A stretch of 64,000 nucleotides of DNA from Aestuariispira insulae (lineage in GTDB: Bacteria; Pseudomonadota; Alphaproteobacteria; UBA8366; Aestuariispiraceae). Each line of letters opens with the position of its first letter. Within the stretch, counting starts at the first letter, position 1. The translations under genes were made by a program, and so were the position numbers. A model generated the notes under the pieces. That model saw only the letters and a program-made list of their open reading frames with translations. It ran no database searches and was not told the origin of the DNA. Of this stretch, positions 4,655-61,376 are shown in pieces. The stretch is taken from assembly GCF_003385955.1 (NCBI RefSeq), contig NZ_QRDW01000009.1, positions 62,001 to 126,000 on the forward strand, written 5' to 3'.

Positions 4655-4689
4655 AAAGAGCGGGATGAACCATCATCCCGCTCTTTTTT
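4655..4689 (+). terminator. Rho-independent terminator after rubrerythrin
   Basis: A perfect 14-bp stem (AAAGAGCGGGATGA / TCATCCCGCTCTTT) with the 4-base loop ACCA, running into six T residues, 6 bases after the rubrerythrin stop codon. It partly separates rubrerythrin from the following Fe-S gene. Confidence 0.93.
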
Positions 4690-4769
4690 GATCCGGATCC
4701 CGCTTTGTTGGATCCCATGAAACAGCGCCCCTTATTCTGACTTGAAACGGCAACCGCGGAGAAATCGTC

Positions 4770-6119
4770 ATGCGGGAAGGAAGTCTTGATGCCCCGATCC
4801 GGCATCCTATCGATTGGCAGAACCCTGACTTTTATGATGAAGAGGCATTAGACGCCGAGTTGCGCCGTGTTTTTGATGTCTGTCACGGATGCCGCCGATG
4901 TTTTAATCTCTGTGATTCCTTTCCGCGCCTATTCGATCTGATTGACGATTCCGAAAGCGGCGAATTGGACACGGTCGCTTCCAAGGATTTTAAGCCGGTC
5001 GTGGATGCCTGCACGCTGTGCGATCTGTGTTTCATGACCAAATGCCCCTATGTGCCGCCTCATGAATTCAATCTGGACTTCCCGCATCTGATGCTGCGCT
5101 ACCGTGCCATCGAGTTGAAAAAAGGCGAGGTCGGCACCGCCGCCCGACAACTGACCGAAACCGATAGAAACGGCAAAATGGCCGGTCTGATGGCACCGGT
5201 GACCAACTGGGCTTCCGACCGGCGCAATGGCCTGACCCGCCCTGTCATGCAATCAGTTGCCGGTATCCATAAAGAGGCGGAACTGCCGAAATTCCACGGC
5301 AAGACCTTTATCAAACGCACTAAGGACACGGCCCCGACCGTCAACAAAGAGGCCCCGGCCAGCGGCCGCAAGGCGGTAATCTACGCCACCTGCTTTGCCA
5401 ACTATAATAATCCCGATATTGGTACCGCCGCGCGGGCGATCCTGGCCCATAATGGTGTTGAAACAGAAGTCGTCTATCCGGAATGCTGCGGCATGCCGCA
5501 ATTGGAGCATGGCGATCTGGCCAGGGTCTCGGAGAAGGCTGACAAGGTGGCCTCGGTCCTGCTGCCCTATGTGGAAAAGGGCTATGATGTGATTGCCCTG
5601 GTGCCCAGTTGTACCCTGATGCTAAAATTTGAATGGCCCCTGATCGCCCCCGAAAATGAAAAGCTGAAAACCCTGGCCCAGGCCACCTTCGATGTCAGCG
5701 AATATATTGTCGACATTGCCCGCAAGGAAGGATTGGCCGATGGGCTATCCCCGCTGGATGGCGGGGTTTCAGTCCATCTCGCCTGTCATGCGCGCGCACA
5801 AAACATGGGCCAGAAAGCAGCCGAATTGATGAAACTGATCCCGGACGTTGAGCTGAAAGTGGTTGAACGCTGTTCCGGCCATGGCGGCTCCTGGGGCATA
5901 CAAAAAGAGAATTTCGAGGTCGGCATGAAAATCGGCCGCCCGGTCTTCCGACAAATGGCCGATGGCGGCAAACCAAAATACATCGCCAGTGAATGTCCGC
6001 TGGCCGGTCTTCATATCGGCCAGGGTATCCAGGCCCAGGCCAAAGAAGGCGAGCCTTTGCCGGAAACAGTGCCCCATCCGGTAATTTTGATGGCCAAAGC
6101 CTATGGTCTCAGCTATTAG
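4770..6119 (+). CDS. Fe-S protein with two CCG domains, GlpC/heterodisulfide reductase-like
   Basis: A 449-aa soluble redox protein. The N-terminus holds two [4Fe-4S] ferredoxin-like motifs, CHGCRRCFNLC near residue 38 and CTLCDLCFMTKCP near 81. The C-terminal part has two cysteine-rich CCG domains (ECCGMPQLEHGD near 240 and ERCSGHGGSWG near 370), as in GlpC, glycolate oxidase GlcF and heterodisulfide reductase HdrB. No flavin or membrane part is present. GCGGAG lies upstream of the ATG. It sits between rubrerythrin and a DUF3501 gene, a trio I recognise from other proteobacteria; the context suggests it passes electrons to rubrerythrin or a related peroxide/iron function, but the substrate is unknown. 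Confidence 0.82.
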   Translation: MREGSLDAPIRHPIDWQNPDFYDEEALDAELRRVFDVCHGCRRCFNLCDSFPRLFDLIDDSESGELDTVASKDFKPVVDACTLCDLCFMTKCPYVPPHEFNLDFPHLMLRYRAIELKKGEVGTAARQLTETDRNGKMAGLMAPVTNWASDRRNGLTRPVMQSVAGIHKEAELPKFHGKTFIKRTKDTAPTVNKEAPASGRKAVIYATCFANYNNPDIGTAARAILAHNGVETEVVYPECCGMPQLEHGDLARVSEKADKVASVLLPYVEKGYDVIALVPSCTLMLKFEWPLIAPENEKLKTLAQATFDVSEYIVDIARKEGLADGLSPLDGGVSVHLACHARAQNMGQKAAELMKLIPDVELKVVERCSGHGGSWGIQKENFEVGMKIGRPVFRQMADGGKPKYIASECPLAGLHIGQGIQAQAKEGEPLPETVPHPVILMAKAYGLSY

Positions 6120-6151: not shown

Positions 6152-6745
6152 ATGTCCGCTGCCCGCAAGATTTCCGCCGACGATATCCTCTCCAATGAGG
6201 AATATATGAAAATCCGTGCCGAACGGCGCAAGGCGCTGGTCGCGGTTAAAAAGAATCGCCGTGTGGAAATCGGTCCTGTGGCAACCGCCTATTTTGAATC
6301 CTTCGACACCATGCTGCACCAAATCCAGGAGATGCTCTATATCGAAAAGGGCGGCGAAGAGCAGTTGGCGGATGAACTGGCCGCCTATAATCCGCTTATT
6401 CCCAATGGCCGGGAGTTGGTCGCGACCGTCATGTTTGAAATTGACGACCCTGTTCGGCGCGGCACGTTCCTCTCGAAGCTGGGCGGTGTTGAAGAAACCA
6501 TGTTCATCAAGTTTGGCGATGAGGAAATCATCGGCACACCGGAAGAGGATGTCGATCGGACCAATGCCGCTGGAAAAGCCTCTGCCGTGCAATTTGTCCA
6601 TTTCACATTCAATGACAGCCAGGCGGAGAAATTTCGGTCCGCCGACCAACAGGTCATCATCGGATTCAAACATCCGCAATATGCGCATATGGTGGTGCTG
6701 CAGGATGCCACCCGTAACGCGTTGGCCGGTGATTTTTCAGATTAA
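6152..6745 (+). CDS. DUF3501 family protein
   Basis: A 197-aa soluble protein of unknown function. It shows the DUF3501 pattern: an early RAERRKALVAVKKNRRVEIGP segment, an acidic helix QIQEMLYIEKGGEEQLADELAAYNPLIP, and a later segment VQFVHFTFNDSQ plus VIIGFKHPQYAH. No metal-binding cysteines. The frame is open upstream inside the preceding gene, but the ATG at 6152 has CGGAG at the right distance, and the start MSAARKISADDI matches the family as I know it. The 32-bp gap to the Fe-S gene indicates one operon. The constant partnership with the CCG Fe-S protein suggests a shared function in redox or iron metabolism. Confidence 0.8.
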   Translation: MSAARKISADDILSNEEYMKIRAERRKALVAVKKNRRVEIGPVATAYFESFDTMLHQIQEMLYIEKGGEEQLADELAAYNPLIPNGRELVATVMFEIDDPVRRGTFLSKLGGVEETMFIKFGDEEIIGTPEEDVDRTNAAGKASAVQFVHFTFNDSQAEKFRSADQQVIIGFKHPQYAHMVVLQDATRNALAGDFSD

Positions 6746-6755
6746 TGCCGGGAGA

Positions 6756-7643
6756 TTAGGCGGCCGCTTGTTCCACTCGGTTCCGGCCGCCTTCCTTGGC
6801 CGCATATAATGCCGCGTCGGCCCTTTGCATCATAGCCGACAGGCTTTCGCCTGAATGCCATTGAGCAACACCCTGGCTGACGGTATAGCGAATTTCACTG
6901 CCATCCTTGGTCGCGACGACAGATTCCGCCACATTGACGCGGATGCGCTCAGCAACCTTTTGCGCCGATACCAAGTCCGTTTCCGGTAACATGATGGCAA
7001 ATTCCTCGCCGCCCAGACGGCCAACAAAATCCTGATCCCTGAGATGGTCTTTGCAAGACTTTGCCAGATGGCGCAGGACTTCATCCCCTGCCGCATGACC
7101 ATAGGTATCATTCACCGACTTGAAATGGTCCGCATCCACCATGATCACAGACAATTTGCCGCCATAACGTTGCTCCCTGGCCACTTCATGCTCTGATTCC
7201 TCCAGGAAATGACGGCGGATGAAGACCCCTGTCAGGGAATCAACTGTCGCAAGCTCCCGCAGTTCAACTGATTTACGGCGCAGTGCCAGCAAATTCTTAC
7301 CCCTGGCCAACAGCTCGATCGGCTCCACGGGTTTATCGACAAAATCATTGGCCCCTAATTCGAAGGCCTCGCGCAGTATTTCCTTATCTTCCATGGCGGT
7401 GACCATGATCACCGGATATTCTTCCGGCGTGCGTTCCGCGCGGTAACGTTTGATGTATTCCATGCCGTCCATATCCGGCATCAGATAATCAACCAGCACC
7501 AGATCAATATCCTGGGACAAACAGAATTCCAGGCCCTCCACCGGATCGGTGTAGGTGTGTACCGTGACATCAGAGAGCTGTTTGAGATACTCACCAATCA
7601 ACCTCGCGGTTATCAGCGTGTCGTCTATGACCACTACCTGCAT
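6756..7643 (-). CDS. Response regulator with GGDEF domain (diguanylate cyclase)
   Basis: A 295-aa cytoplasmic protein that probably makes cyclic di-GMP when phosphorylated. Residues 1-120 are a CheY-like receiver (VVVIDDT at the start, phosphoacceptor Asp in LVLVDYLMPDMDG near residue 51, and the VDKPVEP lysine near 102). Residues 130-292 are a GGDEF domain with GGEEF as the active-site signature and RDQD five residues before it, which is the inhibitory I-site. Single receiver plus GGDEF resembles WspR-type proteins. The frame is open to 7721, but AAAGGAAG precedes the ATG at 7643 and the receiver strand begins there. It is divergent from a histidine kinase at 7813, its likely partner. Confidence 0.9.
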   Translation of the reverse strand: MQVVVIDDTLITARLIGEYLKQLSDVTVHTYTDPVEGLEFCLSQDIDLVLVDYLMPDMDGMEYIKRYRAERTPEEYPVIMVTAMEDKEILREAFELGANDFVDKPVEPIELLARGKNLLALRRKSVELRELATVDSLTGVFIRRHFLEESEHEVAREQRYGGKLSVIMVDADHFKSVNDTYGHAAGDEVLRHLAKSCKDHLRDQDFVGRLGGEEFAIMLPETDLVSAQKVAERIRVNVAESVVATKDGSEIRYTVSQGVAQWHSGESLSAMMQRADAALYAAKEGGRNRVEQAAA

Positions 7644-7812
7644 GTGCTTCCTTTGCCCGTTAGCCGTGAACCACGCCCTTCCCCCATTTTCCTCTTTGTC
7701 AACTTCCTGTCTTCGGCTCAACTTGTCAGATTCGACAACGGAAATGAAATAGGCGTTGTTAGTCAGTTAGGGTATACTGTCCACGTGAACAGAAGGTTAA
7801 TCCTTAGAGATC

Positions 7813-9360
7813 ATGAGTTATCCCCTGGCGAATTACCATTTCCGAGACCGAACCCGGTTAGATGTTTTTGAGCTTCTACGGACACCGGTATGGATTTTCG
7901 ATATTACCAACCACGCCATCTGGTGGGGCAATCGGGCAGCCCTCGATTTTTGGCAGGCTTCCAGCTTGGACGAACTTCTTGCCCGGGATTTCTCCAGCGA
8001 TAGTGACATGGTGCGCAATCGCCTGCGCCAAGTGGTGGACAGCACGCCACCCGGCCAACATGTGACCGAGGCCTGGACACTCTACCCCCACGGCAATCCG
8101 GCTGTTGTCACCCTCGACATGAGTCCGATCCGCATCGAAGGCAACCGGGATGGCGTGCTGATCGAAGGGCATGTGCAGTTGGATATGATCCGCGACCCTG
8201 ACGCAATCCGACTGCTCGAGGCAGCCCGAAACACCCCCATGCTGGTCAGTACCTTCGGCTTAGTGGATGGTCGCATCCGCACGCAAAATACCGCTGCCGC
8301 AGGTGTTTACGGCCTGAACACCAGTGATCCCACCAATATCGTTGACCTCGAGAGTCGCTATGGCAACCTGGTGGCGGCCTCTCTGCTGGAATGTTGCCGC
8401 AATCGGCGCTTTTTTGAATGTGACGCCTATGTCTCAAGCCCCACTGTCGGCCGTTGGCATCATGTGGATGCCCGCCCCGGAAGAGACCCGGTCAACGGCG
8501 ACCTCGTGGTGGTTGTCACCGAAGAAGACATCACCATGCAGGTTGCCGCCTGGCAACAGTTGGAGAATATGAACCGCACACTGGAGACACGCGTCCAGTC
8601 CCGTACAAAGGAATTGGTGGAAATTACCCAGCGGGCACGGGAATCACAGCAGAAGGAAATAGAGGCCAGCCGCGCAAAGTCAAATTTCCTCGCCAATATG
8701 AGCCACGAATTACGGACTCCGCTCAACGCCATCATCGGGTTTTCCGATTTAATGCGTTCAGCCTTTTTCGGTCCATTGGAAAACCGCTATCAGGAATATG
8801 CCGACCATATTCACAGATCGGCGGACTATCTGCTCAAGCTGATCAACGACCTCTTGGATCTGTCCCGGATCGAGGCGGGCAAGACCCGATGCGAACCGGC
8901 CCTGTTTGAATTGCGCCAACTACTTGACGAACTGACCTCTTTTCTACCTGGACAGTCGGGCACAGACCGCTGCACGGTCAATATCCATGTCGATCCAGAC
9001 CTCCATCAACTTTATACCGACCGGAGGATCCTGTCCCAGATCCTGATCAATCTGATTGCCAACGCCATCAAGTTCACCCCTGTCGCCGGACATGTCGACC
9101 TGCTGTTCAAACGCGAAGAGGGTCTGGGAATTATCATCGAAGTGAAGGATACGGGCGCCGGGATCCCCCCGGAAGATCTTGACCGGGTGCTGCACCCCTA
9201 CGAGCAAACTGACTCTGCCACCATCGCCAATAACGGCACCGGCCTCGGCCTTTCGATTGTCAACCGCCTCAGCATCCTTCTTGGCGGACGGTTTGAGCTG
9301 GAGAGCGAGATTGAGTGCGGGACAACCGCCCGGATCACCCTGCCAGACGATCAGAGGTAA
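7813..9360 (+). CDS. PAS-containing sensor histidine kinase (soluble)
   Basis: A 515-aa kinase with no membrane segment. Residues ~15-130 form a PAS-like domain with TPVWIFDITNHAIWWGNRAA, residues ~135-250 a second PAS-like region ending in VVVTEEDITMQV, then a coiled coil (residues ~255-290). HisKA has the phosphoacceptor His in [16 protein letters not shown] near residue 300; the ATPase domain has NLIANAIKF (N box), DTGAGIP (G1) and GTGLGLSI (G2). It probably senses an intracellular ligand or redox signal. It is divergent from a receiver-GGDEF protein, a likely output. Its sensory half is strongly similar to that of the hybrid kinase at 56940-58856, so the two are paralogs. Confidence 0.88.
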   Translation: MSYPLANYHFRDRTRLDVFELLRTPVWIFDITNHAIWWGNRAALDFWQASSLDELLARDFSSDSDMVRNRLRQVVDSTPPGQHVTEAWTLYPHGNPAVVTLDMSPIRIEGNRDGVLIEGHVQLDMIRDPDAIRLLEAARNTPMLVSTFGLVDGRIRTQNTAAAGVYGLNTSDPTNIVDLESRYGNLVAASLLECCRNRRFFECDAYVSSPTVGRWHHVDARPGRDPVNGDLVVVVTEEDITMQVAAWQQLENMNRTLETRVQSRTKELVEITQRARESQQKEIEASRAKSNFLANMSHELRTPLNAIIGFSDLMRSAFFGPLENRYQEYADHIHRSADYLLKLINDLLDLSRIEAGKTRCEPALFELRQLLDELTSFLPGQSGTDRCTVNIHVDPDLHQLYTDRRILSQILINLIANAIKFTPVAGHVDLLFKREEGLGIIIEVKDTGAGIPPEDLDRVLHPYEQTDSATIANNGTGLGLSIVNRLSILLGGRFELESEIECGTTARITLPDDQR

Positions 9361-55641: not shown

Positions 55642-56319
55642 TTATTTGGCATCGTGAAAAATAACACCCAGCGCGTGGCGTTGGCCGGATCGGATCCGGC
55701 TGACGCCATGGCGCATGGTCACCCGGTAATCGCCGCGCTTCCCTTTTTTGGGCTGATGATTGACCGGAAAGACCACCGCATCCCCCTGTTTCAGCGGTAT
55801 CACCTCGGCACGTGACTGCATCCGGGCGCGCTGTTCGGTCAGAATAAACTCACCGCCCTCGAAATCCGTTTCCGGGCGGGAAAGCAATATGGCAACCTGC
55901 AGCGGAAAAACCATCTCGCCATAAAGATCCTGATGCAGGCAGTTATAATCCCCTTCGCCATAACGCAGGATAAGCGGGGTCGGCCTTTCCTGGCCATTTT
56001 GATGGCAGCGTTTCAAATAGTCCTGATGAACGGCTGGATAGCGGATCGCCACCCCCATCCTGGCCGTCCATTCATTGGCGATCTCCGCCAGGGCCGGATA
56101 GAGGCTGTTGCGCAAATCCAGGATCCGGTCCGGCAAAGGATAAGAGAAATAGCGGTATTCTCCCTGGCCAAAACCATGCCGGGCCATGGCCACGGTTGAT
56201 CGATAGCGTTGATCGTCATCGTAACCATTTACAAAAGACTGGCATTCCGACGGAGATAACAACCCGGTTAACAGGCAATAGCCGGTTTCATTCAGGGCGT
56301 CTTTATTGATTTGCACCAA
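55642..56319 (-). CDS. 2-oxoglutarate/Fe(II)-dependent oxygenase, non-AUG start
   Basis: A 225-aa protein with a double-stranded beta-helix: HQDLYGEMVFPLQVAILLS carries the HxD metal pair near residue 125, FEGGEFILTEQ follows, and the distal His and the 2-oxoglutarate-binding Arg are in TMRHGVSRIRSGQRHALG near 200. This matches the prolyl 4-hydroxylase-type 2OG oxygenases (PF13640/PKHD-like). The start is TTG (or the adjacent GTG), with AAGG about 9 bases before the TTG; no ATG exists before residue 40. The substrate is unknown. It is convergent with the cyclase operon. Confidence 0.85.
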   Translation of the reverse strand: MVQINKDALNETGYCLLTGLLSPSECQSFVNGYDDDQRYRSTVAMARHGFGQGEYRYFSYPLPDRILDLRNSLYPALAEIANEWTARMGVAIRYPAVHQDYLKRCHQNGQERPTPLILRYGEGDYNCLHQDLYGEMVFPLQVAILLSRPETDFEGGEFILTEQRARMQSRAEVIPLKQGDAVVFPVNHQPKKGKRGDYRVTMRHGVSRIRSGQRHALGVIFHDAK

Positions 56320-56399: not shown

Positions 56400-56849
56400 C
56401 TAATAACCGCTGCTATACCCACCTTCTTCGGTGGATTTTTGCCCGCTGTCATCTTTGCTGCTCATGGTTACGATATACCAGACATTGCGCACGCCATCCC
56501 CGTTGATATCACCGGGTTTCTTATCCTTAATGAAAAGATAAAGAGGCTGTTCCTTGTAGGCCCATTGATTGCGCCCGTCCTTGCGGGGGATCATACTAAA
56601 ATCCCCTTTTGCCTCCGCGCCGTCGGCCGCATAGGCCGGCGGCCAGTTTGTCGCACAATCCTGATAGCAGTTGGAGATGCCCGGTAAATCGAGATCAAAG
56701 ACATAGAGCGTCAAGCCTGCTTCATTGGTCAGGATTTTGCCGCCTGCCACTTCCCGAACGGAAATGCCATTTGGCAGCGATAAACCGTAGCTGACGCAGC
56801 CCGCCAAGAGAGACAATGAAATCAGGATGCTCGCAAACCGAATTTTCAT
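56400..56849 (-). CDS. COG4315 (PF03640) lipoprotein
   Basis: A 149-aa probable lipoprotein: the signal peptide ends in the lipobox LLAGC (residues ~14-18). The body has the two secreted-repeat units of this family: LTLYVFDLDLPGISNCYQDC and later QPLYLFIKDKKPGD, with NWPP. The pattern YxFDxDxPGxSNC...C is the hallmark of COG4315, whose function is unknown; the paired Cys may bind metal or heme or form a disulfide. It ends in GGYSSGY, similar to its two paralogs at 60.3-61.2 kb. AGGGGAAG precedes the ATG. It lies downstream of the hybrid kinase on the same strand. Confidence 0.85.
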   Translation of the reverse strand: MKIRFASILISLSLLAGCVSYGLSLPNGISVREVAGGKILTNEAGLTLYVFDLDLPGISNCYQDCATNWPPAYAADGAEAKGDFSMIPRKDGRNQWAYKEQPLYLFIKDKKPGDINGDGVRNVWYIVTMSSKDDSGQKSTEEGGYSSGY

Positions 56850-56939
56850 AGACGTCTTCCCCTTAATCCAAAACCTGCACCGATCAGTTGTATTCTGATG
56901 CGCTTTTTGCCTGACTGCAATCATCGCACCATAAAAACG

Positions 56940-58856
56940 TTAACAATCGGTGACCTTGCTCAACGCACGCACCATGGCCTGAAACAATAGATCACGTTCT
57001 ATCGGCTTGGTGACATGATCATCCATACCAGCGCTGAGGTAGCGTTCACGATCTCCCTTCATGGCATTGGCCGTCAAAGCAATGATCGGTACATCGCTTT
57101 TTGGAGGGGCCATGGCGCGGATCTCGGCGGTCGCGGTGATCCCGTCCATGCGTGGCATCTGAGAATCCATCAAGATCAGATCATAATCTTCCGTTTCAAC
57201 CTTCGCGACCGCTGCGGCACCATCATCGGCAAAATCCATGGATACATTCAACCGCCCCAGGAATGCCTGCATCAGGCGCTGGTTCACATGGTTATCTTCA
57301 GCCACCAGGATACGCACAGGGGCCGTTCCTGCTTTTAGGAACCCCTCCGGCACTTCCGTTTGCAGATCTTTTGCATTCTCCAGGGCTGCTGGCTGACCGG
57401 CATCAAATTCTATTCCAACAGAAACAGTCGTGCCCCGGCCCTGCTGACTATCCAGCGATACGGTGCCTCCCATCAGTTCCGTCAATTCCCGACATATGGC
57501 CAAGCCCAAACCTGTGCCGCCATAGCGGCGCGAGACCGAACCATCCACCTGGGCAAATCGTGCAAACAGCTTTTCCTGGTCCGCCTTTGCGATACCAATG
57601 CCACTATCTTCGACCGTCAAGGTTACATGATGCCGACCGCTCTTTAACAACGAATGATCCATCCTGAGACTGACCGCACCCATATCCGTGAATTTAAGGG
57701 CATTTCCCAGAAGATTGTTCAAAATCTGGCGCAGACGCAATGTATCGCCGATCAAAACCGGTGGCATGACAGGCGGTAAAGACAGTTTAAAATCGATGCC
57801 TTTGGCATTGGCTGCCTGGCGCCAGAAACCGGCAACCCTTTTCAGTAGTTCCCCCATATCAAAGGCGACAGGTTCCAATTCCATTGCACCCGCCTCCACC
57901 TTGGAAAGGTCCAAAATGTCGTTTAACAGGTCTCTGAGTCCAAGGCCGCTTTCCCGAACATAACGCAACATCTGTTGCTGTTCTTCATTCAGGCCTTCAT
58001 CCATCAAAGCTTCTGTGAAGCCCAGAATACCGTTAAGCGGGGTGCGTAATTCATGGCTCATCACGGCAAGAAAATCGGATTTTGCACGATTTGCCGCCTC
58101 CGCCTGTTCCAAAGCCTCGCGCAACTCCGTGACATCCTCTTCTGTCACCACAAGATTGAATTCACCGGTCACTGGATCACGGCTGATCCGGACATCCATC
58201 GCATGCCGCCGCGGCCCGGCCAGGGTTTCCACCTGAAACTCCTCCCGGCTTGCCTGATGGTCCCGGGCCCGGCGCAACCGGTTCTGGCCGAGCGCCCGGT
58301 CGGAAAAGCGCCGTACAAATAAAGGGTCCGGATCAACAATCCGGTCTTCCCGGATATTGCCATAAATCGCGCCCGCGGCTTCATTCTGGCGCATCAGATG
58401 GCCATCCATGGAAAAAACAGTGATGGGATTGGGGATATAGCGCATCGCCTCGATCAGCATGATATTATCCGGCATACTTCCCAGATCAACATCGTCGGAC
58501 ACAAAGGCGATGATCCCTTCCACCGCATCGTCACCCAGCCGGATAGACCGATGGCGCATATGAGTAACCTTCGGCTTGTCGTTGGGATAGGTGGTCCAGG
58601 TTTCCTCGCGCTCGCCCTGCGCCGCGGCCATTTCAAAGGTCTGCCAAACCCGCCGTTTCGCACCATCACTGTCACCGGACAAGTCCTTGTCGATCATATC
58701 CTGGACCGTGTTCACACCCCACATCTTCAAAGCGGCCTGGTTGCACCACCAAAACTTATAGTTGCGAACATCAAAAAACCATACCGGAGTCGGTACCATT
58801 TCAAACAGTTCGGCCTCTGAACGATGTTGGAAATGTCTTAAATGGTCATTTGCCAT
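56940..58856 (-). CDS. Hybrid PAS sensor histidine kinase with C-terminal receiver
   Basis: A 638-aa soluble kinase. The N-terminal two PAS-like domains (TPVWFFDVRNYKFWWCNQAALKMWG near residue 24, NPITVFSMDGHLMRQNEAA near 150, ending VVTEEDVTELRE) match those of the kinase at 7813-9360. HisKA has [15 protein letters not shown] near 275, the ATPase domain NLLGNALKFTD, DSGIGI and GTGLGLAI, and the receiver has LILMDSQMPRMDGI (phosphoacceptor Asp near 563) and ALTANAMKGD. No output domain or partner regulator gene is adjacent. It stands between two COG4315-related groups of genes on the same strand. The ribosome binding site is weak. Confidence 0.88.
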   Translation of the reverse strand: MANDHLRHFQHRSEAELFEMVPTPVWFFDVRNYKFWWCNQAALKMWGVNTVQDMIDKDLSGDSDGAKRRVWQTFEMAAAQGEREETWTTYPNDKPKVTHMRHRSIRLGDDAVEGIIAFVSDDVDLGSMPDNIMLIEAMRYIPNPITVFSMDGHLMRQNEAAGAIYGNIREDRIVDPDPLFVRRFSDRALGQNRLRRARDHQASREEFQVETLAGPRRHAMDVRISRDPVTGEFNLVVTEEDVTELREALEQAEAANRAKSDFLAVMSHELRTPLNGILGFTEALMDEGLNEEQQQMLRYVRESGLGLRDLLNDILDLSKVEAGAMELEPVAFDMGELLKRVAGFWRQAANAKGIDFKLSLPPVMPPVLIGDTLRLRQILNNLLGNALKFTDMGAVSLRMDHSLLKSGRHHVTLTVEDSGIGIAKADQEKLFARFAQVDGSVSRRYGGTGLGLAICRELTELMGGTVSLDSQQGRGTTVSVGIEFDAGQPAALENAKDLQTEVPEGFLKAGTAPVRILVAEDNHVNQRLMQAFLGRLNVSMDFADDGAAAVAKVETEDYDLILMDSQMPRMDGITATAEIRAMAPPKSDVPIIALTANAMKGDRERYLSAGMDDHVTKPIERDLLFQAMVRALSKVTDC

Positions 58857-58994
58857 AGGAAGACCGCCCCCCTGCCCCAGTTGGATATATCACTGCTGAT
58901 AAACCTAGCCAGCTATCCAGCCTTTGCAATGCAAAAGTCACGGCATATTATAGGCGACCAATAATTGAAAATGGTCAAAATCGTAGAACCGGCT

Positions 58995-59789
58995 TCAAAT
59001 GGCACCGGCCGGCCATTGCGCCTGCAGCTTGCTGGCCAACCCTTCCAGCTGGTCCTTTGACAGATTGCCGACCAGATTAAAACTCAGTGACGGGTTTAAC
59101 CAGTAAAAGGCCCCGGTTTTGCCCTGGGACACAAAGGCAAAGGATGATGTCTTGCCCGAGGGATTGGGCGTGATGAACAAGGTCACCCGTTCCCCCTTTT
59201 CATCTTCAAACATAAACTGGGCCGCCGCCCCATTGGTCGCCGCCAACAGACGCCCGCCGATCAGGTCAAAATCCAGCCCGCTCAGATCCGGCTCAATCAG
59301 TTGCCGGTCCAGCCTTTTTGACAGCCAGGAGACCAAATGCTGGGACTGTTCCGCCGTCACTTCGACAGGATGGGTCTTGTCAACCGAATAGACATCATGG
59401 GCATTGATGGCGAGATGGGCCTCCGCGGAAGCCGAAAAATCCTGTGACGCCAGGATTCCGCGCGTCATCCACCCCCCGGCGAGGCCAACCGCCAGCAGCA
59501 AAATTGACGCGGCCACCAGGCGCAGCTCCGGCCGCCAGAGACTCATTCGGCTTTCCCTGTTTTTCCGCAAGTTTCTCGGATCAAGATAGTCCGGCACGGG
59601 TGCGTCCACTTCCCGGTCAAACAGGGCTTTTAAATCCTGATTCTGCTGTTGCCAGGTCCGGACCTTTTCCATGGCGTCGGGGTTTTCTTTCAGGAACGCC
59701 TCCATGGCCCCGACCCGATCAGGGTCGAGCTGGCCGTCCACATACATCATCATTTCATCATCGCTGAAAATGGGATCCTGTCTGCTCAT
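58995..59789 (-). CDS. Anti-sigma factor
   Basis: A 264-aa membrane protein that probably holds the ECF sigma factor inactive. The cytoplasmic N-terminus FSDDEMMMYVDGQLDPDRVGAMEAFL is the usual anti-sigma helical start but lacks the zinc-binding His/Cys pattern. One membrane span (VAASILLLAVGLAGGWMTRG, residues ~100-120) follows, then a ~140-residue periplasmic domain with FMFEDEKGERVTLFI. It overlaps the sigma gene by 4 bases (ATGA), so the two are translated together. GAGGACGGTGAA precedes the ATG. Confidence 0.88.
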   Translation of the reverse strand: MSRQDPIFSDDEMMMYVDGQLDPDRVGAMEAFLKENPDAMEKVRTWQQQNQDLKALFDREVDAPVPDYLDPRNLRKNRESRMSLWRPELRLVAASILLLAVGLAGGWMTRGILASQDFSASAEAHLAINAHDVYSVDKTHPVEVTAEQSQHLVSWLSKRLDRQLIEPDLSGLDFDLIGGRLLAATNGAAAQFMFEDEKGERVTLFITPNPSGKTSSFAFVSQGKTGAFYWLNPSLSFNLVGNLSKDQLEGLASKLQAQWPAGAI

Positions 59790-60307
59790 TTCACCGTCCT
59801 CACCGATACCGTTTTTTCCACCCCTTCCTCCGTCAGCCGGGTCAGATTCTGCCGGGCCCTTGAAAGCCTGGACATCACCGTACCCTGCGGAATATTGAGG
59901 ATTTCCGCCGCCTCCCGATAACTCACCCCTTCCAGGACCACCAAGGTTAAAACCTCTTTTTGATCTTCCGGTAGTTTGGCCAGTGCCTCGGCGGTCTGGC
60001 CCAGCGCGATCCGGTTGACCTGCGGCGCCTGCTCGGACAGACGCGCCGGATCCCGGACCTCTTCGATCGGCAGGCTGTTCCGGGCGAAATCCGTTCGGCG
60101 CACCTGGTTCCGGTTCACATTGACCATTACCTTGAACAGCCAGCTTTTCAGGGATCCGGAAGGCCGCCAAAGGCGGCGCTTCCGAATGGCACGCTCCAGA
60201 CAATCCTGGACCAGGTCGTCCGCACGATCCCGGTCCTGGGTCAGCGCCAGCGCATAACGCCTGAGCGCCGGAACCTGATCGGCGATATCGTCCATCAAAT
60301 CAGCCAT
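59786..60307 (-). CDS. ECF-family RNA polymerase sigma factor
   Basis: A 173-aa extracytoplasmic-function sigma factor. Region 2 contains LVQDCLERAIRKRRLWRP and SWLFKVMVNVNRNQVRR; region 4 contains LPEDQKEVLTLVVLEGVSYREAAEILNIPQGTVMSRLSRAR. It lacks regions 1 and 3, as all ECF factors do. The gene is cotranscribed with the anti-sigma factor and preceded by two COG4315 protein genes; such linkage suggests that it controls them in response to an envelope signal. Its own target promoter is not identified. Confidence 0.93.
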   Translation of the reverse strand: MADLMDDIADQVPALRRYALALTQDRDRADDLVQDCLERAIRKRRLWRPSGSLKSWLFKVMVNVNRNQVRRTDFARNSLPIEEVRDPARLSEQAPQVNRIALGQTAEALAKLPEDQKEVLTLVVLEGVSYREAAEILNIPQGTVMSRLSRARQNLTRLTEEGVEKTVSVRTVK

Positions 60308-60334
60308 AACACTCCCTCGGCCCCAAAAACGGCC

Positions 60335-60748
60335 TTAATAACCGCTGCTGCCATCCATCCGGATCACGTGCCAGACATTCTTGACCTTATCGCCGGTCAC
60401 GTCTCCAGCCTTCTTATCTTTGATCCAGGTATAAAGCGGCATTCCTTTATAGGCCCATTGCCAATCACCGTCATCCCTGGTGATCACGGAAAAATCCCCT
60501 TCGGCCTTGGCATCCTTGGTGGCCATCATCGGCGACCAGGCAGTGGCGCATCCGCCATTGCAATTGGATTTTCCAGGCTGGTCCTTATCAAAAGTATAGA
60601 GGGTCATTCCCTTTGCATTGGCCAGAACCTTGCCAAGCGAACTTTCCTGATACTGGAAACCGGCCGCCGCATGATGATCGGCAAGTGCCGCGGTAGCGCC
60701 CAACGCCAGCGCGGCAGTGAGGATGGATGCTTTTAAAACCTGTTTCAT
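60335..60748 (-). CDS. COG4315 (PF03640) secreted protein
   Basis: A 137-aa protein with a cleavable signal peptide (MKQVLKASILTAALALGATAALA) and no lipobox Cys, so it is a soluble periplasmic or secreted protein. It has the two repeats of COG4315: MTLYTFDKDQPGKSNCNGGC and MPLYTWIKDKKAGD, with the HHAAAGF segment after the signal peptide and a short tail MDGSSGY. Function unknown; the family is often small, secreted and linked to ECF sigma factors. AAAGGAAC precedes the ATG. It lies 27 bp before the sigma gene and 20 bp after its paralog. Confidence 0.88.
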   Translation of the reverse strand: MKQVLKASILTAALALGATAALADHHAAAGFQYQESSLGKVLANAKGMTLYTFDKDQPGKSNCNGGCATAWSPMMATKDAKAEGDFSVITRDDGDWQWAYKGMPLYTWIKDKKAGDVTGDKVKNVWHVIRMDGSSGY

Positions 60749-60768
60749 GTCGATTGTTCCTTTCACGA

Positions 60769-61221
60769 TCAATAGCTGCCGCCATAGCCGCCATTGCCGC
60801 CATAGCTGTAGGTTTTTTGGGCTTTCTTGATCAGGACCGCATGCCAGACACCACCGATGCCGTGACCAGTCATATCGCCGGGCCGATCATCCTGGGCATA
60901 GAGATAAAGCGGTTGGCCCTTATAAGCCCATTGCCAGACATTACCGTCCCGCTTGATCACCGAATAATCACCCTGGGCCGCCTGATAACCGCTGGCCAGC
61001 ACCGCAGGCCATTTGGCTGCGCAAGCCTCGTGGCAGTTGGACACACCCGGCATATCCAGATCAAAGGTATAGAGCGTCATGCCATGGGTATCGGTCAGCA
61101 GATAGCCGCCGTTGGCTTTGGCCAGGGTCAATGCCGGGGGGACGGATTGCGCGCCACTGCTGAAACAGGCGGTCAGGGTCATGGCACCGGCCAGGGCAAG
61201 TAAGCGGGAACGGATGGTCAT
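60769..61221 (-). CDS. COG4315 (PF03640) lipoprotein, paralog
   Basis: A 150-aa probable lipoprotein (lipobox LTAC within AMTLTACFSSG). Body: MTLYTFDLDMPGVSNCHEAC and QPLYLYAQDDRPGD, the same two-unit pattern as its neighbour, and a tail YGGNGGYGGSY rich in Gly, Ser and Tyr. AAAAAGGATC precedes the ATG at 61221; a longer frame (to 61287) has no leader character. It is the first gene of the sigma-containing operon, so a promoter should lie in 61222-61376. Confidence 0.87.
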   Translation of the reverse strand: MTIRSRLLALAGAMTLTACFSSGAQSVPPALTLAKANGGYLLTDTHGMTLYTFDLDMPGVSNCHEACAAKWPAVLASGYQAAQGDYSVIKRDGNVWQWAYKGQPLYLYAQDDRPGDMTGHGIGGVWHAVLIKKAQKTYSYGGNGGYGGSY

Positions 61222-61376
61222 AGGGTTGATCCTTTTTCGAAGTGGTAAATTTGTCCCTCCGAAAACAGAACAGGTCGACCGGGCCAATTATTCCCAGATT
61301 TTTCGACTTTTTTTCATTGTGATTGAAAAACAAAGGGATGCGCATGCTTTCACGCGCATCCGCAATAGATCGGCGG

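Follow-up and report, generated by a model that had tools for sequence, protein, structure and literature searches.

An RpoE1-like operon of COG4315, sigma factor and anti-sigma factor genes in Aestuariispira insulae, with a hybrid kinase as its neighbour

Genes at the locus

The window considered here is a stretch of 64,000 nucleotides (nt) from Aestuariispira insulae, and its positions 56400-61221 carry genes for an extracytoplasmic function (ECF) sigma factor, an anti-sigma factor, a hybrid histidine kinase and three secreted COG4315 proteins, here named cogA, cogB and cogC. All six minus-strand genes placed there by a first-pass annotation of the DNA are present, with the starts of cogB and cogC refined to 60748 and 56849. 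The cogA, cogB, sigma and anti-sigma genes form a tight operon of an already described kind, in which 20 nt separate cogA from cogB, 27 nt separate cogB from the sigma gene, and the sigma and anti-sigma genes overlap by 4 nt. The kinase gene lies 138 nt beyond the anti-sigma gene and cogC a further 90 nt beyond the kinase. The features are, in the direction of transcription:

61269-61295, minus strand: predicted ECF promoter, GGGAATAA-N13-CCTGTT, 74 nt before the cogA ATG, agreeing with 13 of 14 consensus positions
60769-61221, minus strand: cogA, COG4315/PF03640 protein (PF03640 E 1.5e-25), lipobox LTAC, tail ending GGYGGSY
60335-60748, minus strand: cogB, COG4315/PF03640 secreted protein (PF03640 E 4.8e-33), no lipobox, tail ending GSSGY
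59786-60307, minus strand: ECF sigma factor, RpoE1-like, with Pfam sigma-70 regions 2 and 4
58995-59789, minus strand: single-pass anti-sigma factor, related to EcfR1 and characterised by a structural model with fold and profile comparisons
56940-58856, minus strand: hybrid histidine kinase with Pfam PAS, HisKA, HATPase and response-regulator domains
56400-56849, minus strand: cogC, third COG4315/PF03640 protein (PF03640 E 9.2e-28), lipobox LAGC, tail ending GGYSSGY

The assignment of three secreted COG4315 proteins is confirmed by Pfam, which finds two repeats of PF03640 (Lipoprotein_15) in each, with scores of 88.9, 95.9 and 112.9 bits against a gathering cut-off of 24.4. These are the only PF03640 proteins in the assembly (99.4% complete), and all six repeat matches fall at this locus, so that their clustering is not a matter of chance. 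PF03640 is found in 2 of 14 genomes of the family and in 57 of 299 genomes of a phylum sample, the genome of the window being counted in both. Between the operon and an upstream hydrolase gene lies a terminator-like hairpin (61361-61336), although shuffled sequence yields such sites about half as often.

Conservation of the operon and its promoter

The conservation of the unit was examined at the loci (numbered L below) of the best 80 of 555 sigma matches, counts over which are not independent because 20 of them carry Devosia titles. A COG4315 gene stands directly upstream of the sigma gene in 61 of the 80, on the same strand in all 61, and an anti-sigma homologue is present in 79. Within the stretches examined, no relative has more than one COG4315 copy. 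The retained gene order and the single copies indicate that the unit is conserved and that, among these loci, only the window carries it with three copies. G001, the other genome of the family with PF03640, has one COG4315 gene followed by the sigma and anti-sigma genes and then by an ABC (ATP-binding cassette)-transporter-like gene, with no kinase. Nineteen of the 80 loci show no COG4315 gene, among them L055, where only 0.2 kb upstream is available to judge.

The closest described system is SMc01418-rpoE1-ecfR1 of Sinorhizobium meliloti, an ECF26 circuit with the same gene order, a similar promoter and homologous proteins. There the operon is given as SMc01418-rpoE1-SMc01420, its first gene encoding a putative secreted protein in which a "lipoprotein 15" motif is repeated, and homologues of SMc01418 are said to lie often within rpoE1-like operons (PMC3511301). 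RpoE1 belongs to ECF26, controls its own operon and is active with taurine and thiosulfate (PMC3511301), and its overexpression raises SMc01418, rpoE1 and the anti-sigma gene (PMC3511301; PMC6180224). This operon is present in a 3.7-Mb record of S. meliloti Ak57 (labelled pSymB; L137), where a 33-nt segment of the SMc01418 promoter, as published, recurs with zero mismatches. The window sigma factor is 38% identical to S. meliloti RpoE1 over 145 residues (E 5e-30), cogB, the positional counterpart of SMc01418, is 51% identical to it over 126 residues, and the anti-sigma factor is 35% identical to EcfR1 (E 1e-43). In contrast to S. meliloti, which has one COG4315 gene, the window has three, with lipoboxes in two and Tyr-ended tails in all three, and adds a hybrid kinase and the third COG4315 copy downstream. 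The earlier proposal that the sigma/anti-sigma pair and the COG4315 proteins belong together is borne out by 61 of 80 relatives, by the conserved promoter and by the S. meliloti overexpression data (PMC3511301; PMC6180224), and this link is already published. The set in the window is a known kind of operon with a variant copy number, lipidation and tails.

The predicted promoter of cogA resembles the mapped SMc01418 promoter (GGGAATAA...TGT), which is given in PMC6180224. Upstream regions of COG4315 genes share the pattern GGGAWTAA-N12/13-GSTGTT, with a variable spacer, and a score of at least 12 of 14 is reached by 50 of 60 homologous upstream regions compared to 4 of 1370 control windows drawn from those loci; this count took 60 of the 61 COG4315 loci, L014 being dropped for its degenerate gene. 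The resulting promoter rule can be used to find a COG4315-linked regulon. In the genome of the window the exact pattern has three matches, one of which is cogA, and the other two have no convincing downstream gene. Allowing one mismatch gives 11 sites, cogA included, against 3 for a reversed-pattern control. Two of these sites are located some 100 nt upstream of envelope redox genes, namely a CCP_MauG-family di-haem protein (L141) and MsrP (L146, 1501-2563; msrP by an NCBIfam equivalog, 441 bits; site 100 nt upstream), and both are suggestive only as regulon members.

Genes for YceI offer a second view of a possible regulon. The motif also precedes a YceI gene adjoining the operon upstream at Brucella/Ochrobactrum, Agrobacterium-type and Paramesorhizobium loci (Pfam check at L010, L011 and L015), and at both loci checked (L011, L015) the gene after the anti-sigma gene encodes a cytochrome b561. 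In S. meliloti, the cytochrome b-like SMc01022 responds to RpoE1 and RpoE3 (PMC6180224). In two Pleomorphomonas genomes a YceI gene distant from the operon carries the motif (L195, 14/14; L201, 13/14; shuffles at most 11), which points to an envelope redox regulon. The YceI scan covered 42 loci, 30 from genomes with the COG4315-sigma operon (of 38 matches), 11 from family members without PF03640, and the copy of the window's own genome. Scores of at least 13 occur in four of the 30, L195 and L201 away from COG4315 and L200 and L207 beside it; L197, also beside COG4315, scores 12, and the other 25 score 9-11, every Kiloniella copy among them. The 11 family loci likewise score 9-11, and the single YceI operon of the window's own genome, which by eye follows a b561-like gene, has a 12/14 site that is no better than shuffles (maximum 12). 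Since most YceI genes scanned are without the motif, YceI as a universal member of the regulon was rejected.

Other ECF26 circuits govern sulfite oxidation. The rpoE4-sorT and sigE-sorAB systems share the -35 consensus GGAAT (PMC6527743), whereas the window operon has no sulfite dehydrogenase and its -10 element is GSTGTT-like instead of CGTC. A further article, PMC8315932, concerns an ECF16 system. Elsewhere in the same genome (L184, G000:C2:149000-161000; 4656-5921, plus strand, and 6323-7629, minus strand) a second ECF/anti-sigma pair is convergent to a sulfite-dehydrogenase-like gene (PF00174, E 3e-55). At this second locus GGAAT-N16-SGTC, the one spacing tried, was not found, and GGGAWT...TGT occurs at chance level only.

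The first-pass annotation saw two signalling routes combined at the locus, the sigma/anti-sigma pair and a soluble hybrid kinase. The PAS, HisKA, HATPase and response-regulator domains of the kinase are confirmed, and with a most hydrophobic 19-residue stretch averaging only 1.0 it is most likely soluble, as described. The combination of routes did not hold up. In 63 loci the sequence extends at least 3.5 kb past the sigma gene; only one of them (L083) has a similar kinase there, and that locus has no COG4315 gene; G001 has none. Similar kinases occur elsewhere in the flanks, upstream or farther off, both with COG4315 (L017, L067, L075) and without it (L038, L043, L069, L086), as expected of a common protein type. 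Two-route signalling was rejected because the kinase is unlinked in relatives. A narrower proposal is that the kinase and the sigma circuit are one joint system in this lineage and share their output genes; the kinase does lie on the same strand between the anti-sigma gene and cogC, and a terminator-like site was not found in the 138-nt gap before it. However, the operon is never followed by a kinase in judgeable COG4315-bearing relatives, and in two family members without PF03640 (L135, 1340-2812; L136, 852-2138) GGDEF proteins share 41-42% identity with the kinase's N-terminal half (residues ~5-255), which makes such a joint system improbable. The kinase is probably a neighbour and not part of the conserved unit.

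The anti-sigma factor

The anti-sigma factor has one strongly hydrophobic segment (residues 91-109) and no cysteine, and a zinc-ligand Cys/His (ZAS) motif is accordingly absent. It matches no Pfam family at 1e-3, and its matches to two NCBIfam anti-sigma models (E 9e-6) do not reach the cut-offs. Within its alignment of 46 sequences, zf-HC2 is matched at E up to 5 by 35 members and DUF4367 weakly by 6. An AlphaFold2 model built from the 46 sequences has a mean pLDDT (predicted local distance difference test) of 89, with ten-residue means of 91-98 over residues 121-260, and its periplasmic domain is predicted to have the fold of the RseB/MucB C-terminal domain. Foldseek gives this match a probability of 1.00 (top rows E 0.002-0.03), and in the VIA comparison the RseB/MucB rows have Z 9.4-9.7 with a root-mean-square deviation of 2.8-3.3 over 93-103 residues, followed by TM1622 at Z 8.0 and then by Z 6.7. 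As the lowest RseB/MucB row exceeds TM1622 by only 1.4 Z, the assignment leans on sequence evidence too. MucB_RseB_C (PF17188) is matched weakly, at E up to 5 (best 1.8e-4), by 16 of the 46 relatives, and not by the window protein itself, whose only match in that search is DUF3379 (E 0.001, below cut-off). Profile comparison aligns residues 171-258 to RseB-type C-termini with a probability of 81.7%, compared to 0.1% for COG4315, the RseB profile being built from the C-terminal 150 residues of 23 of 25 RseB-type proteins. Of 150 sampled genomes, 25 have PF17188; the genome of the window shows no match to it at E 1e-3.

The protein is nevertheless not an RseB, since residues 1-135 are predicted helices, including the membrane segment, with no N-terminal lipid-binding (LolA-like) domain. 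It can be compared with the RseA-RseB and MucA-MucB locks on sigma-E/AlgU, which likewise have a single-pass anti-sigma factor. In those systems the RseB-type protein is separate, whereas here the domain resembling its C-terminus lies within the anti-sigma factor and the lipid-binding domain is missing. MucB shields MucA from the protease AlgW and is released by lipid A (PMC7400510), and the built-in domain may represent a compact version of the MucA-MucB lock. The C-terminal domain of EcfR1 has been likened to Bacillus subtilis RsiW and not to RseB (PMC6180224), and we found no report of an RseB-like domain on anti-sigma factors among the open-licence PMC articles listed or in the accessible portions of PMC7406223, PMC7769602, PMC7400510 and PMC13108547. 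This predicted domain is the most interesting general point of the locus, and it gives a testable idea of how the sigma factor is released, a step that PMC6180224 calls hypothetical. The anti-sigma alignment includes proteins from seven loci without visible COG4315 (L055 among them), so that the domain is not bound to the presence of COG4315.

COG4315 proteins and the proposed circuit

Thirteen residues (L50, Y51, D56, C63, C67, W71, R91, L105, Y106, D111, G115, G119 and W126) are invariant in 50 COG4315 sequences, and H127 is kept in at least 90% of them. The CxxxC motif formed by C63 and C67 is also kept in 28 of 29 more distant PF03640 members. The predicted fold of cogB is confident at residues 31-130 (block means of 94-98 pLDDT) and matches none of the solved structures searched, with 0 Foldseek matches at E 1e-3 and 0 of 788 chains at Z 2 in VIA, and sequence searches of the PDB with COG4315 returned nothing significant. 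The COG4315/PF03640 family is among those modelled without a known structure in PMC8078820; this was the only relevant article found for PF03640/Lipoprotein_15 in the open-licence PMC literature, where nothing was found for COG4315 by name. A crystal structure of such a small, abundant protein would be informative. The invariant CxxxC and the near-invariant histidine could form a binding site, and the COG4315 proteins would then be metal or heme carriers, as the persistence of CxxxC in distant members might suggest. This is a rather improbable role, as the fold and sequence match nothing solved to which it could be compared, a CxxCH heme motif is absent from the 3 window proteins, 60 homologues and 29 distant members, and both cysteines may simply form a structural disulfide.

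The window paralogues have the two repeats, the CxxxC motif and the signal peptide in common with the PF03640/COG4315 family, and differ from it by their lipoboxes, in cogA and cogC and not in cogB, and by C-terminal tails of 10-24 residues that close with Tyr in all three. In 59 homologues (L014 and L077 excluded) the tails have 3-6 residues, none ends in an aromatic residue, and no lipobox is found by a simple pattern; Tyr-ended tails are likewise not seen among the 29 distant members. The aromatic tails recall the C-terminal signals of outer-membrane proteins and MucE that are read by AlgW (PMC8545111), and it could be that the COG4315 proteins are the sensing partner of the circuit, binding the RseB-C-like domain and controlling destruction of the anti-sigma factor, so that the first genes of the operon would encode regulators and not effectors. 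The placement of COG4315 directly upstream of sigma in 61 of 80 loci, the predicted domain itself and a role of SMc01418 in RpoE1 control suggested in PMC3511301 would all fit. However, COG4315 is not visible at the other 19 sigma/anti-sigma loci (L055 not being judgeable), the seven anti-sigma factors from such loci share the same alignment, which means that the domain does not require COG4315, and the tails are absent from the 59 homologues and the 29 distant members. Furthermore, of 29 other PF03640 loci, taken as the top scorers of the phylum sample, 19 have no such ECF gene within 1.5 kb, and SMc01418 amounts to 10% of total proteins in stationary phase (PMC3511301), which is much for a sensor. 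We regard a sensing role as unlikely, and the loci in which either partner occurs without the other argue for an effector. A variant in which the anti-sigma factor is a one-protein RseA-RseB lock and, in this lineage, the COG4315 (lipo)proteins act through their Tyr-ended tails as a MucE-like periplasmic trigger is a long shot; if true, the operon would sense how the secreted products that it makes most abundantly are sorted, or their redox state.

The explanation that we favour, and consider quite probable, is that the locus is an autoregulated RpoE1-type (ECF26) envelope-stress operon, with the COG4315 proteins as its main output, the kinase as a neighbour and cogC as a duplicated effector. 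At rest, the single-pass anti-sigma factor would keep the sigma factor at the membrane. S. meliloti RpoE1 is active with sulfite-generating substrates (PMC3511301; PMC6180224), and by this analogy envelope stress, in the form of sulfite or related reactive sulfur species, would inactivate the anti-sigma factor via its RseB-C-like domain, most likely, we infer, through regulated proteolysis. The released sigma factor would then transcribe cogA, cogB, sigma and anti-sigma from GGGAATAA-N13-CCTGTT. The COG4315 proteins are proposed to be abundant proteins of the periplasm or outer membrane, disulfide-capable through the invariant CxxxC, that guard the envelope, perhaps with feedback on the switch. 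The kinase would be a mere neighbour, and cogC a duplicated effector stranded beyond it. Of this explanation, the operon kinship, the conserved promoter and the domain content come from computation, while stimulus, proteolysis and the function of the proteins are inferred. Should it hold, the regulatory setting of a widespread and so far uncharacterised family of secreted proteins would be established.

Several points weigh against this explanation. Upstream of cogB and cogC the ECF motif scores 10/14, which is chance level, so sigma control of cogC is conjecture. G001, the closest relative with the operon, has a motif score of 10, also chance level, and the promoter rule fails in most of the 42 YceI genes scanned. 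The ECF26 assignment is putative, drawn from kinship with RpoE1 in gene order, promoter and sequence. The stimulus in this organism is taken from S. meliloti, and because RpoE1 stimuli are species-specific, taurine and tetrathionate among them (PMC6527743), sulfite may not be the signal here.

A few other COG4315 loci are unusual. In Rubellimicrobium mesophilum (L077, 7593-8504) the COG4315 frame continues into the sigma gene with no stop between, which may reflect an internal start, a real fusion or a sequence error. One Agrobacterium tumefaciens genome (L014, ~7670-7990) has an apparently degenerate COG4315 gene after an intact promoter motif. On a Pseudomonas orientalis plasmid (L138, 263-4306) the neighbourhood of a COG4315 gene includes genes for a TDT-family transporter, a LysR regulator and YncE, and no ECF gene. 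In the window itself, the next gene downstream of cogC (55642-56319, minus strand) encodes an Oxygenase-NA protein (PF09859, E 1.9e-85), which according to the Pfam description acts on damaged DNA.

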